A program made the position numbers and the translations under genes. Under the pieces are notes generated by a model, which was not told the DNA's origin, made no database searches, and was given only the letters and a program-made list of their open reading frames with translations. Shown piece by piece: positions 1 to 7,686 of a stretch of DNA of 40,291 nucleotides (position 1 is the first letter of the stretch; every line of letters starts with the position of its first letter). The stretch comes from Solimonas soli DSM 21787. GTDB taxonomy: Bacteria > Pseudomonadota > Gammaproteobacteria > Nevskiales > Nevskiaceae. The DNA is taken from NCBI RefSeq assembly GCF_000474945.1, contig NZ_KI440839.1, positions 38,504 to 78,794 of the forward strand, read 5' to 3'.

Positions 1-684
1 CTCACCCAACCCTCTCCTCCCCGAGGGAGGAGAGGGCTCGAAGCTGTGCGCCGCCCTTTCACTCCGATTCCCCTCCGCCCTCTCGCGGGGGGAGGGGTCA
101 GGGGAGGTGGGCACCCGCATCGCGCACCGAACCCGCACCGCGCGCCGCACCACCCTCCTCACCCAACCCTCTCCTCCCGGTGGGAGGAGAGGGCTCGAGG
201 GCACGCGCCGCGCTCTCAACACCGATTCCCCTCCGCCCGCTCGCGGGGGGAGGGGTCAGGGGAGGTGGGCGCCTGCATCGCGCACCGAACCCGCAGCGCG
301 CGCCGCAGCACCCTCCTCACCCAACCCTCTCCTCCCCGTGGGAGAAGAGGGCTCGAAGCTGTGCGCCGCACTCTCAACACCGATTCCCCTCCGCCCGCTC
401 GCGGGGGGAGGGGCCAGGGGAGGTGGGCACCCGCATCGCGCACCGAACCCGCAGCGCGCGCCGCAACGCCCTCCTCACCCAACCCTCTCCTCCCCGCGGG
501 AGGAGAGGGCTCGAAGCTGTGCGCCGCCCTTTCACTCCGATTCCCCTCCGCCCGCTCGCGGGGGGAGGGGTCAGGGGAGGTGGGCGCCTGCATCGCGCAC
601 CGCACCCGCAGCGCGCGCCGCGGCACCCTCCTCACCCAACCCTCTTCTCCCGACGGGAGGAGAAGGCTCGAAACCCTGCGCCGC
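1..684 (+). repeat. Tandem array of a 157-158 bp palindromic composite repeat
   Basis: The same block starts at 1, 158, 316, 474 and 631, so the period is 157-158 bp. Four full copies and one partial copy are present, and the array runs off the left edge. Each unit holds a near-perfect palindrome of CCCTCTCCTCCC facing GGGAGGAGAGGG with a 2-4 base centre, then a second GC-rich imperfect palindrome (CCCCTCCGCCC facing GGGGGGAGGGG), joined by a conserved GGTGGGCGCCTGCATCGCGC-type linker. The last copy is more diverged (TCTTCTCCC). Long reading frames cross the array, but they only reflect the absence of stop codons in this GC-rich repeat. Confidence 0.93.
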
Positions 685-732
685 TACCGCGATCCCTCGC
701 CGCCGCATCGGCACCGGCGCGAGCCATCCTGC

Positions 733-738
733 TACGCT
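733..738 (+). promoter_or_regulatory. Candidate -10 element of gpx
   Basis: TACGCT lies 28 bases before the gpx ATG in the context gcTACGCTgcgggc. Similar gcTACACTgcg words precede several other genes in the window. No good -35 is visible. Confidence 0.3.
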
Positions 739-766
739 GCGGGCCCTGCAACTCCGGAAACGAACG

Positions 767-1246
767 ATGACCACCGCATACGACTTCGAAGCCAAGACCA
801 TCGACGGTACGACGCAGAAGCTCGACGCCTACCAGGGCAAGGTGCTGCTGATCGTCAACGTCGCCAGCAAGTGCGGCTTCACGCCGCAGTACAAGGGCCT
901 CGAAGCGCTGTGGCGCAAGTACAAGGACAAGAATTTCGTGGTGCTCGGCTTCCCCTGCGATCAGTTCGGCCATCAGGAACCGGGCGACGAAAACGAGATC
1001 AAGAACTTCTGCTCGCTGACCTACGAGGTCGACTTCCCGATGTTCGCGAAGATCGACGTCAACGGCGCCAACACGCACCCGCTCTACCAGTTCCTCAAGC
1101 GCGAGGCGCCGGGCGTGCTCGGCACCGAAGGCATCAAGTGGAACTTCACCAAGTTCCTCGTCGACAAGAGCGGCAAGGTCGTGAAGCGCTACGGCTCGAT
1201 GGACACGCCGGAGAAGATCGAGGCGGACATCGCGGCGCTGCTCTGA
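767..1246 (+). CDS. Glutathione peroxidase family thiol peroxidase
   Basis: This 159-residue protein reduces hydroperoxides. The peroxidatic Cys is C36 in NVASKCGFTPQY. The catalytic partners are also present: Q70 in GHQEPG, and W125-N126 in KWNFTKF. C64 (GFPCDQF) and C82 (FCSLTY) match the cysteine layout of BtuE-like enzymes, where the C82 position resolves the sulfenic acid and thioredoxin is the usual reductant. No signal peptide is seen, so it is probably cytoplasmic. The reading frame stays open far upstream through the repeat array. The ATG at 767 is chosen because family homology begins there (MTTAYDFEAKTIDG) and GGAAA lies just upstream. It converges with the ypfJ-type gene. Confidence 0.93.
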   Translation: MTTAYDFEAKTIDGTTQKLDAYQGKVLLIVNVASKCGFTPQYKGLEALWRKYKDKNFVVLGFPCDQFGHQEPGDENEIKNFCSLTYEVDFPMFAKIDVNGANTHPLYQFLKREAPGVLGTEGIKWNFTKFLVDKSGKVVKRYGSMDTPEKIEADIAALL

Positions 1247-4698: not shown

Positions 4699-5084
4699 AG
4701 CGCGCGCTCGGCGTCGCCGCCCTGCTCTGTCTCGCGGCCTGTCGCGGCAACACGGAGCCCGTCGCCGTCACCGCCGCGGACGCCGGCAGCACCGTGATGC
4801 TGCACGCCGGCCAGCGGCTGCGCGTCGAACTCGACAGCAATCCGACCACGGGCTACCGCTGGCAGCTGGCGCTGCCGGCCGATGCGCCGCTGCGCAGCGA
4901 AGGCGACGCCGAGTACCGGCCCGATCCGCACGCCGCCGGTCTGGTCGGCGCCGGCGGCCACGAGATCTGGAGCTTCCGCGCCGAGCGCACCGGCAACGTG
5001 ACGCTGCACTTCGAATACCGTCGGCCGTTCGAGAGCGGCCCGCCGCCCGGCCGCAGCGCCGATTTCCGCGTCAGCGTGCGCTGA
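4695..5084 (+). CDS. Chagasin-family (I42) protease-inhibitor lipoprotein
   Basis: This 129-residue protein begins with a lipoprotein signal (LLCLAAC, lipidated Cys about residue 15). The rest is a chagasin-like beta domain with the three inhibitory loops of family I42: NPTTGYRW, a [10 protein letters not shown] segment and a YRRPFE segment. Chagasins inhibit papain-like cysteine proteases; bacterial members are thought to block host or competitor proteases. It overlaps the upstream gene by ATGA, and its 3' end overlaps the convergent queA by 14 bases. No cysteine protease is encoded in the window, so the target is not local. Confidence 0.88.
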
Positions 5085-6117
5085 ACGCCTCCGGCGCCGG
5101 CTCGATCAGCATCGCGTCGCCGTAGCTGAAGAAGCGGTAGCGCTGCGCGACCGCGTGGCGGTAGGCGGCCATCATGCGGTCGTAGCCGCCGAAGGCGCAG
5201 ACCAGCATCAGCAGCGTGCTTTCCGGCAGATGAAAATTGGTGAGCAGCAGATCGATCACGCGGAAGCGGTAGCCCGGCGTGATGAACAGGCGCGTCTCGC
5301 CGCTCTGCGGCCCCAGCGTGCGCACGCGATCCTGCGCGGCGGCGGCCGATTCCAGGGCACGCGTCACCGTCGTGCCGATCGCCACCACGCGCCCCGCCCG
5401 CGCGCGCGTCGCTTCGAGCTTCGCGCACAGCGCGGCGTCGATCGCGTAGCGCTCGCTGTGCATGCGATGTTCGGCGAGATCGTCGACGCGCACCGGCTGG
5501 AAGGTGCCGGCGCCGACGTGCAGGGTCAGCGTCGCCGTCTCCACGCCGCTGGCGGCGAGCGCCTGCAGCAGGGCCGCGTCGAAATGCAGGCCGGCGGTCG
5601 GCGCCGCGACCGCGCCGGGCTCGCGCGCGAACACGGTCTGGTAGCGCTCGGCGTCGACGGCGTCCGGATCGTGCGCAATGTACGGCGGCAGCGGCAGGCG
5701 GCCGGCGCGTTCGAGAAAGGCCATCACGCCGTCGGCGCCGTCGTAACGCAGATGGAACAGGTCGTCGTCGCGGCCGAGTACCGTCAGGCGATCGTCGCCG
5801 ACCTCGATCACGCCGCCCGCCTTCGGCTTCTTGCTGACGCCGAGCTGGGCGAGGAATTCGTGCGCATCGAGCACGCGCTCGACGAAGATCTCGACGTGGC
5901 CGCCGGTCGGCTTGCGGCCGAACACCCGCGCCGGGATCACGCGCGTGTCGTTGAACACGACGAGATCGCCGGGCGCCAGCAGCGCGGGCAGATCGACGAT
6001 CATGCGGTCGGCGAGTTGGCGGCCGACGTGCAGCAGGCGGCTCGCCGAGCGCGCGGCGGTGGGATGCTGGGCGATCAGCGCTTCGGGCAGTTCGTACGAG
6101 AAATCGGTGCGGCGCAT
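5071..6117 (-). CDS. queA: S-adenosylmethionine:tRNA ribosyltransferase-isomerase
   Basis: This 348-residue enzyme transfers the ribosyl moiety of AdoMet to preQ1 in tRNA to make epoxyqueuosine. Recognisable family blocks are [19 protein letters not shown] at the N-terminus, [36 protein letters not shown] and FNFHLPEST-like [13 protein letters not shown] near the end. The start at 6117 is chosen over an upstream in-frame ATG at 6171, because homology begins at MRRTDF and the extra codons overlap a terminator's A-tract. The gene is separated from tgt by two opposing genes, and its last 14 bases overlap the chagasin gene. Confidence 0.96.
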
Positions 6118-6171
6118 GGCGGGAGCGGGCGAAACGGCCGCGTATTCTCGCAGAAGCGCCGCCCCGCCCAT

Positions 6172-6196
6172 AAAAAAGGCCCGCGCTCGGCGGGCC
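6172..6196 (-). terminator. Rho-independent terminator 54 bases upstream of queA
   Basis: On the minus strand a perfect 7 bp stem GGCCCGC/GCGGGCC with a 5-base loop is followed by six Ts. It points toward queA, so it either ends a minus-strand transcript coming from 6.2-6.7 kb or acts as an attenuator in a queA leader. Confidence 0.8.
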
Positions 6197-6300
6197 AGTT
6201 CAGGTGAGATGCCACGGACGGCTGAGGGATCAGCCGCGGCACACGTTACGGGCTCGCGGGCTCATAACCTGAGCCCGCGGCGGCAGTGGCCGGCGACGCT
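6172..6300 (-). ncRNA. Candidate structured RNA ending in the pre-queA terminator
   Basis: Read on the minus strand, three hairpins follow each other. The first is a perfect 10 bp stem with a 5-base loop (CGCGGGCTCA/TGAGCCCGCG, 6256-6280). The second is a 6 bp stem with a 4-base loop (GGCTGA/TCAGCC near 6220-6235). The third is the terminator stem at 6178-6196 with its T-run. No reading frame is supported here. It could be a small RNA, the 3' end of the transcript carrying the 23-codon ORF, or a queA leader. I could not match it to tmRNA, SRP RNA, RNase P, 6S RNA or a preQ1 riboswitch. Confidence 0.4.
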
Positions 6301-6339
6301 GCGGCGTCCTCCAGCCAGTTCGGCAGGCGCTCGCGACGC

Positions 6340-6372
6340 TATAGTCGAAGACAAAGATCTTCGGCGGAGGAG
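6340..6372 (+). promoter_or_regulatory. Promoter remnant, operator-like inverted repeat and SD of a truncated regulator
   Basis: TATAGT (6340-6345) is a good -10. A 6 bp inverted repeat CGAAGA/TCTTCG with 6-base spacing (6346-6363) covers the expected transcription start. GGAGGAG (6366-6372) lies nine bases before the ATG at 6382. The -35 is weak. The 5' control region therefore survives although the gene body is missing. Confidence 0.45.
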
Positions 6373-6381
6373 CGCAGAGAC

Positions 6382-6490
6382 ATGGATGCCAACGCACATT
6401 CCGGAGAAGTGTTCACGCACGAGTTTTTCGCGCCGCCGTCCTACCCGGGCGCGATCCAGCGCGACGAATTGCTGAACCGCCTGTTGCGCA
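6382..6490 (+). pseudogene. Truncated N-terminus of a MalT/LAL-type LuxR regulator
   Basis: From the ATG at 6382 the frame reads MDANAHSGEVF, then THEFFAPPSYPGAIQRDELL and NRLLRT. The pattern F-x-A-P-P-x-x-P-G-x-[IV]-x-R-x-x-L-L-x-R-L is the segment just before the Walker A motif in large ATP-binding LuxR (LAL) regulators. The expected P-loop does not follow. After about codon 36 the frame becomes arginine/glycine-rich and runs antisense to the 23-codon ORF, stopping at 6711. Promoter and SD look intact. I infer a deletion that removed nearly all of an approximately 900-residue gene. Confidence 0.5.
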
Positions 6491-6524
6491 CGCCGGCGTG
6501 TCGGCGCGGGGCGGAAGGGCGGGG

Positions 6525-6596
6525 TCAGCAGCAGCCGTGGACCGGCGCGGAAGCGGCGGGCGGATCGATGGCGGCGCGCGCGCCGGCGGGCAACAT
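6525..6596 (-). CDS. Candidate 23-residue peptide with Cys-Cys C-terminus
   Basis: ATG at 6596 opens a 23-codon frame that starts MLPAGARAAIDPP and ends APVHGCC before TGA at 6525. AGGGGAG lies six bases before the ATG, one of the best ribosome sites in the window, which is the main argument for translation. The peptide is Ala/Pro-rich with one His and two terminal cysteines and has no membrane segment. A possible SD-masking stem and a direct-repeat operator lie upstream, and a structured region with a terminator lies downstream. It could be a cysteine-sensing leader peptide, a precursor of a modified peptide, a metal-binding peptide, or chance. I recognise no family. Confidence 0.45.
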   Translation of the reverse strand: MLPAGARAAIDPPAASAPVHGCC

Positions 6597-6670
6597 GGGT
6601 TTCTCCCCTCTCGTCGGATCGATCGGCCGGCGGCGCCGGTCCTCGTCACGTGCTTTTGGTGAGGGAGAAA
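6597..6670 (-). promoter_or_regulatory. Possible SD-sequestering leader of the 23-codon ORF
   Basis: On the minus strand TTTCTCCC (6670-6663) is perfectly complementary to GGGAGAAA (6607-6600), which contains most of the SD of the 23-codon ORF. Two to three further pairs form past a single bulged G. The intervening 55 bases include a very GC-rich self-complementary core (GACCGGC/GCCGGCC). Such an arrangement would hide the ribosome site unless the stem opens. Confidence 0.4.
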
Positions 6671-6704
6671 CGAAGCGCCGGCCTACAGGCCCACGCTACA
6701 CGAA

Positions 6705-6723
6705 CGGGTAGTTTTCCGGGTAG
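6705..6723. repeat. Direct repeat CGGGTAG x2, operator candidate
   Basis: CGGGTAG occurs at 6705-6711 and again at 6717-6723, a 12 bp period. It lies about 110 bases upstream of the 23-codon ORF (minus strand) and about 95 upstream of the DUF1295 gene (plus strand). Spaced direct repeats of this kind are typical of activator sites; LAL regulators bind such sites in other bacteria. A regulator cannot be assigned from sequence alone. Confidence 0.4.
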
Positions 6724-6816
6724 CCCCGCCGCCGGCGGGCCCGCCCCGTGGCGCGGCCGGTCCTGCTATCGTCGCGGCACGGCGCCGCAGAGCGCCGGCC
6801 TTGATTCGGGGAAAAC

Positions 6817-7686
6817 ATGAAATCCAAGCACACGGCGCTGGCGCTCATCGCCATCGCCTATGTCGCGGCCGTGGCGGCGGCCGCCGCCATCCTGCTCGGC
6901 ACCGCGCTGCCGGCACCCTGGGATGCGCTGCTCGCGGACGTCGTGGCGACGGTCGTCGTCTTTGTCTTCAGCCGGCGCTACCGCAACTCGAGCTTCTACG
7001 ATGCCTACTGGAGCGTGATCCCGCCGCTGCTCGCGCTGTGGTGGCTGGGTCATCGCGCGGCCGGCATCGACATGACGCGCGCCGTGCTCGTCGTCGTGCT
7101 GGTCTGGCTGTGGGGCATCCGCCTGACGGCGAACTGGGCGACGCACTGGCAGGGCCTGCGGCACGAGGACTGGCGCTACCCGCTGGTGCGCGAGCGCGCC
7201 GGCCGCCACGCGGCGCTTGCCGACTTCTTCGGCATCCACCTGTTCCCGACCCTGCAGGTCTTCCTCGGCTGCCTGCCGGTCTACGCGGTGATGGTCCACG
7301 GCGGCGCGCCGTTCGGCGCCCTCGACGTGCTCGCGCTCGTCGTCACCGCCGCCGCGATCGTCATCGAGACGCTTGCCGATCTGCAGCTGCGCGCCTTCAT
7401 CGCCCGCAGGCAGCCCGGCCAGTTCATCGCCAGCGGCCTGTGGGCCTGGTCGCGGCACCCGAATTATTTCGGCGAGGTGAGCTTCTGGTGGGGCCTGCTG
7501 CTGTTCGGCCTCGCCGCCGCGCCGCAGCAGGGCTGGTGGACGATCTGGGGCGCGCTGACCATGACGGCGATGTTCGTGTTCGTCAGCATCCCGTTCATGG
7601 ACCGGCGCAGTCTCGAACGCCGCCCGGCCTACGCGGAGCACATGCGCAAGGTCTCGGCGCTGCTGCCGCTGCCGCCGCGGCGCTGA
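6817..7686 (+). CDS. DUF1295 / steroid-5-alpha-reductase-like membrane protein
   Basis: This 289-residue protein has six or seven hydrophobic segments, starting with LALIAIAYVAAVAAAAAILL. The C-terminal region holds the motif FIASGLWAWSRHPNYFGEVSFWWG, which is diagnostic for DUF1295 and related NADPH-binding membrane reductases and methyltransferases (RHPNYFGE). The substrate is unknown. It is transcribed alone. An extended -10 TGCTATCGT lies at 6764-6772, and GGGGAA precedes the ATG. 7687-7876 after it shows no gene. Confidence 0.9.
   Translation: MKSKHTALALIAIAYVAAVAAAAAILLGTALPAPWDALLADVVATVVVFVFSRRYRNSSFYDAYWSVIPPLLALWWLGHRAAGIDMTRAVLVVVLVWLWGIRLTANWATHWQGLRHEDWRYPLVRERAGRHAALADFFGIHLFPTLQVFLGCLPVYAVMVHGGAPFGALDVLALVVTAAAIVIETLADLQLRAFIARRQPGQFIASGLWAWSRHPNYFGEVSFWWGLLLFGLAAAPQQGWWTIWGALTMTAMFVFVSIPFMDRRSLERRPAYAEHMRKVSALLPLPPRR

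Follow-up and report, generated by a model that had tools for sequence, protein, structure and literature searches.

Results

Taken as a whole, the evidence makes us highly confident that the short open reading frame (sORF) at 6525..6596 on the minus strand of the window (the entire 40,291-nucleotide stretch of Solimonas soli DNA analysed here) is a leader ORF orphaned by the deletion of an RND/catabolic operon under a LAL-type regulator. In relatives such leader ORFs most likely serve translational coupling, and the window copy is probably without function now. The sORF is thus explained by a traceable deletion instead of the hidden peptide system that a sequence-only reading of this DNA had proposed from its Cys-Cys end.

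A probable deletion between queA and a DUF1295-type gene

The window holds two remnants. On the plus strand, a LAL (MalT-type LuxR) regulator begins at 6382 and is cut short after 38 codons (6382..6495). The fragment is 82% identical (31/38 residues) to a 903-aa S. flava protein, with similarity ending after codon 38, and so bears out the earlier description of a truncated regulator opposite the sORF. On the minus strand, an operator-plus-leader segment (6585..6716) has homologues in RND-operon leaders, at 70% identity to that of S. flava and 69% to that of S. terrae. The flanking genes are presumably queA on the left (5071..6118, minus strand) and a DUF1295-type gene on the right (6817..7686, plus strand). 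An intrinsic terminator-like hairpin with a T-run lies just before queA (6178..6196, minus strand), and a similar stretch is found in S. flava.

In a search of 61 genomes, window positions 6150-6820 split in S. flava into two matches ~30 kb apart, one on the regulator side and one at the operator-leader. The window's own outer neighbours, queA/tgt and DUF1295/yaeQ, are likewise separated by ~30 kb in S. flava and S. variicoloris. For leader and regulator the distance is ~42 kb in S. terrae and ~44 kb in S. marina; in the stretches covered in these two, only the queA side was seen, and the 10 kb examined around the leader showed no DUF1295/yaeQ flank. Between the flanks, S. flava carries an untruncated regulator gene and, convergent to it, an operon that begins at the leader and encodes, by Pfam domains, an RND/MMPL transporter, two DUF1329 proteins, a DUF1302 protein, and hydantoinase A-like, hydantoinase B-like, AMP-binding and thiolase proteins. 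The nine proteins of this cluster that were scanned are transport, regulatory or catabolic proteins or of unknown function.

The S. flava alignment holds on the regulator side to ~6499 and starts on the leader side at 6492. In this overlap, the junction GCCGGCGT (6492..6499), the regulator-side match ends and the match to the S. flava leader-side hairpin begins. In S. flava the shared GCCGGCGT is part of the hairpin that follows the leader ORF, and it provides ~8 bp of microhomology, so that the junction would fit a deletion of ~30 kb at a short microhomology; the loss looks like one single event. The junction may instead be an assembly error. A truncated regulator stands beside an operon leader, and this therefore points to loss in the window rather than gain in the relatives.

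Absence from the rest of the genome was judged on three genes of the cluster. The best homologues of the lost RND gene are 60-62% identical and lie on another contig. Of the regulator, nothing beyond residues 1-39 is matched at this place, and its best long match otherwise is 30% identical. Hydantoinase A gives no match at 1e-30 in this genome, although 9 of 11 genomes searched within the genus have it. With the operon found between the same neighbours in relatives and the tested genes missing here, the suspicion that the gene served had been lost is well founded; so is the term remnant, given the homology of the start and leader of the sORF to the operon leader in S. flava.

Several observations were made alongside. 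The hairpin-rich, terminator-ended intergenic stretch at 6166-6290 (minus strand) beside queA is a candidate small RNA without an Rfam match. Its counterpart in S. flava, beside the regulator, is 78% alike; the one in S. marina (73%) is located ~0.5 kb upstream of the RND operator. Matches at E 0.001 occur in 6/58 family genomes, three of them (its own genome included) over most of the length; the S. variicoloris copy was missed in this 58-genome search and matched over most of the length in the 61-genome search. At window positions 46-800 and ~2000-2700, dense short GC-rich repeats produce spurious long ORFs with recurring LLTQPSPP/GRRG-like translations and resemble a family of dispersed intergenic repeats. 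Two S. fluminis contigs (L127 and L128) both stop within an RND gene, matched over residues 1-277; a repeat may have broken the assembly there. Five records titled Verrucomicrobia, Rhodospirillales or Klebsiella (L069, L079, L088, L094 and L106) carry RND copies that are 65-76% identical, and these titles are probably wrong.

The short ORF and its ribosome-binding site

The 23 codons of the sORF translate as MLPAGARAAIDPPAASAPVHGCC-stop, and its start and leader have homologues in S. flava. Its Shine-Dalgarno (SD) sequence, AGGGGAG (6603..6609, minus strand), is separated from the ATG by six bases (AAACCC). The start lies ~116 nt from the operator, and many relatives have GAGGAG at a similar operator distance. 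Re-reading the sequence confirmed the coordinates, strand, length, Cys-Cys end, SD sequence and 6-base gap originally reported. The sORF strand continues into the antisense of the regulator fragment and then, ~330 nt away, into the terminator-like hairpin before queA. An Rfam scan of the window gave nothing at gathering scores, ARAGORN found neither tRNA nor tmRNA in it, and a scan of 6000-7000 for the sigma-70 consensus found no promoter.

Short frames are common in this GC-rich DNA. In the window, 204 ORFs of 15-40 codons begin with ATG (79 and 125 on the two strands), and among so many a frame of 23 codons could have arisen by chance, as could its SD, with no relation to its neighbours. A contiguous SD-like core precedes 4 of the 204, and 2 end in Cys-Cys; this sORF alone combines both. 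If five of the six bases of AGGAGG are required, 8 of the 204 qualify and its SD, with a score of 4, does not; for this reason we rate the site, previously called strong, as fair and not as exceptional. Pure coincidence is nonetheless very unlikely, since operator, leader, SD and start are all homologous to a conserved operon leader. Judged by its homology to the conserved SD of that leader in relatives, the SD is not a product of chance. A chance origin is thus contradicted for SD and start, but it may well apply to the sequence of the peptide.

The operator

A pattern search places the operator, AACTACCCGTTCGTGTAGCG, at 6694..6713 on the minus strand, with one mismatch to AACTACCC-N4-GTGTAGTG. 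The LAL protein is its presumed ligand. The place of the -10 element is presumably 6669..6674 (minus strand), where the window reads TTCGTT and S. flava TTAGTT.

The exact palindrome AACTACCC-N4-GTGTAGTG is present in 20/58 family genomes, as a single copy in each, and the reversed-pattern control gives 0. Each of the 20 exact operators is followed by an RND match, at a distance of 126-434 nt. With one mismatch allowed, 29/58 family genomes have the operator, the window copy included, and there are 32 true sites against 5 control sites in the 58 genomes. We considered whether the mismatch in the window reflects decay of the operator and make no such claim, because the intact S. variicoloris operator also differs by one base. 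The genomes with one exact operator each (L066, L068, L074, L077 and 16 further family genomes) provide a target list for one regulator.

A conserved initiation site in the intact leaders

For comparison with intact operons we gathered 24 non-redundant operator loci by the pattern ACTAC-N8-GTAGT ahead of an RND gene; conservation of this pattern among the loci is by construction, as they were chosen by it. Duplicates were removed by identity of the 60 bases from the operator, and two loci in which the RND 5' end falls outside the locus (L117 and L126) were left out of the counts. In all 24 loci, and in the window, a purine SD core lies 104-144 nt from the first base of the operator. A start codon follows 3-9 nt beyond the core in 24/24 loci (14 lineages by our own grouping; background chance of a start codon within the tested range 0.29), and ATG, GTG and TTG interchange between loci. 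In 23/24 the SD serves a short ORF whose stop codon precedes the RND start. The sole exception, L111, has no leader ORF: here the conserved SD, at an unchanged distance from the operator, directly serves the RND ATG.

A stricter count, which demands a leader ORF with an SD of at least 5/6, finds one in 21/24 operator loci, compared with 1.76 expected from shuffles that take no account of kinship between rows, and one hit in each of two control sets. Under this test L086 scores through an internal TTG, and the ATGs of L082, L086 and L053 fall beyond the allowed spacing. RND genes without the operator give a weaker signal, with a leader ORF in 21/61 and 8.3 expected by the same kind of shuffle.

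These counts of SD and start codon across the operator loci indicate that what is kept in the intact leaders is the place where ribosomes enter. The purine site could also be a CsrA/RsmA binding site or an mRNA stabiliser, with the ORF a by-product. CsrA/RsmA sites have a GGA core, which GAGGAG contains, and an unconserved leader peptide would fit such a role. The start codon at SD spacing in every locus and lineage, and the substitution of ATG, GTG and TTG for one another, argue against it, and we regard this explanation as improbable.

Proposed coupling to the RND gene

Among 21 rows measured, 19 have a stronger SD at the leader ORF than at the RND gene, with means of -9.3 and -4.9 kcal/mol, respectively. 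In models run without a shuffled control, opening costs less at the leader start than at the RND start in only 13/23 loci; when the leader ORF is occupied, the RND start opens more easily by >1 kcal/mol in 11/23 and less easily in 1. The gap between leader stop and RND start is ≤10 nt in 6/23 loci, 40-69 nt in 15/23 and >200 nt in 2/23. The leader ORF would most likely supply ribosomes to a weakly initiated RND gene. The short gaps would allow reinitiation, with which the long ones agree poorly; at gaps of 40-69 nt the translating ribosomes would rather keep the leader open. A stable hairpin behind the leader ORF was considered as a defining part of the device and rejected, as the spacers fold with z ≤ -2 in 6/15 cases only.

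The peptide and its cysteines

No conservation is seen in the peptides of the intact leader ORFs. Two of the 23 end in Cys (S. flava CSPRC and S. variicoloris RSPRC), none of the 23 ends in Cys-Cys, and 5/23 have no Cys at all. Short SD-led ORFs, which the earlier reading had proposed to look for in related genomes, are thus present in nearly every operator locus, without the Cys-Cys ending. Codon changes look neutral: in three clades of three rows each, whose pairs are not independent within a clade, 13, 12 and 12 synonymous changes were seen, with 18.5, 10.1 and 10.5 expected under random change, and there is no third-position excess. An earlier count in one clade (37 synonymous vs 36.5 expected) is superseded; one diverged row had been paired unaligned, and three pairs were dropped. 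Random substitutions across codon positions had been named as evidence against the proposed peptide system, and in the relatives' ORFs, to which this test was applied, the changes look random.

An active cysteine-sensing leader peptide, in which ribosomes stall at the terminal Cys codons to regulate a downstream gene, would account for the Cys-Cys end of the sORF and for the terminal Cys in S. flava and S. variicoloris. Against this, Cys varies among the 23 leader ORFs, the S. flava leader precedes an RND gene in a cluster whose nine scanned proteins are transport, regulatory, catabolic or unknown, and in the window the antisense of the regulator fragment and the terminator-like hairpin before queA are what follow the sORF. 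By our reading of 15 folded spacers, none has a hairpin with a T-run behind the leader ORF. The small peptide is most likely no cysteine sensor, because its sequence, cysteines included, varies freely in relatives, and an active sensor in the window is extremely unlikely.

Its small size, own SD and terminal Cys would equally suit a RiPP precursor or a metal-binding micropeptide maintained for its own function, as had also been suggested. We give this suggestion scarcely any credence: substitutions in the relatives' leader ORFs look neutral, an NCBIfam search with four leader peptides returned no match, and the nine scanned S. flava cluster proteins include no maturation enzyme.

Discussion

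The observations are best accounted for by a deletion of ~30 kb that removed the RND/catabolic operon and most of its LAL regulator, apparently in one event. The window retains 38 regulator codons together with the operator, leader and leader ORF of the operon, fused at the microhomology. In intact relatives, the LAL protein would bind the operator ahead of the leader, and a conserved ribosome entry site opens a short ORF whose sequence is free to vary. Translation of this ORF would feed ribosomes to the poorly initiated RND start by translational coupling. The window sORF is probably neither expressed nor functional, because its activator and its target are both gone.

It is possible, though we stop short of calling it probable, that the dedicated operator and the retained entry site form a previously unrecognised ribosome-loading leader for such RND operons, in which translation and not the peptide is under selection. 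As the window illustrates, an SD and a peptide with a suggestive end can outlast the operon that they once served. The intact relatives offer a clean and repeated case in which to ask whether translation of a leader matters apart from its peptide.

Cysteine-responsive leader peptides of mycobacteria have a leaderless start at the mRNA 5' end. Among known systems, the Cys-Cys end recalls the polycysteine leaderless sORFs of mycobacteria, reportedly described by Canestrari et al. in 2020. The sORF resembles them in being very short and ending in Cys-Cys; unlike them it has an SD and a leader and no gene directly after it, and the Cys of the leader ORFs is unconserved in relatives. The SD and the ~116 nt from operator to start would argue against a leaderless start for the sORF.

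The S. flava protein that corresponds to the regulator fragment has the TPR_MalT and GerE domains of LAL/MalT-type LuxR regulators, whereas the 38 codons left in the window give no domain match. The content of the lost operon is reminiscent of AmeABCD of Castellaniella defragrans, described in PMC6394551 as an RND transporter with DUF1302 and DUF1329 proteins in monoterpene metabolism. Both combine these proteins in a catabolic region, but the deleted cluster has in addition a LAL regulator and other enzymes. The words 'leader', 'promoter' and 'LuxR' are absent from the main text of PMC6394551, and the leader is not described in the titles and abstract openings of the papers retrieved on DUF1329/DUF1302 and on LuxR/RND/Solimonas.

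The intact leaders are also like translationally coupled leader ORFs, for which a review (PMC12548453) gives both models, reinitiation and a leader kept open, and names one gene pair as coupled at +52 nt. As in the systems treated there, a well-initiated short ORF stands before a weakly initiated gene, and the gaps of ≤10 nt in 6/23 intact operons would agree with them; the 15/23 gaps of 40-69 nt are unlike them, and so is the window, where the downstream gene is gone. The intact leaders would add at most one more example to this known type of device.
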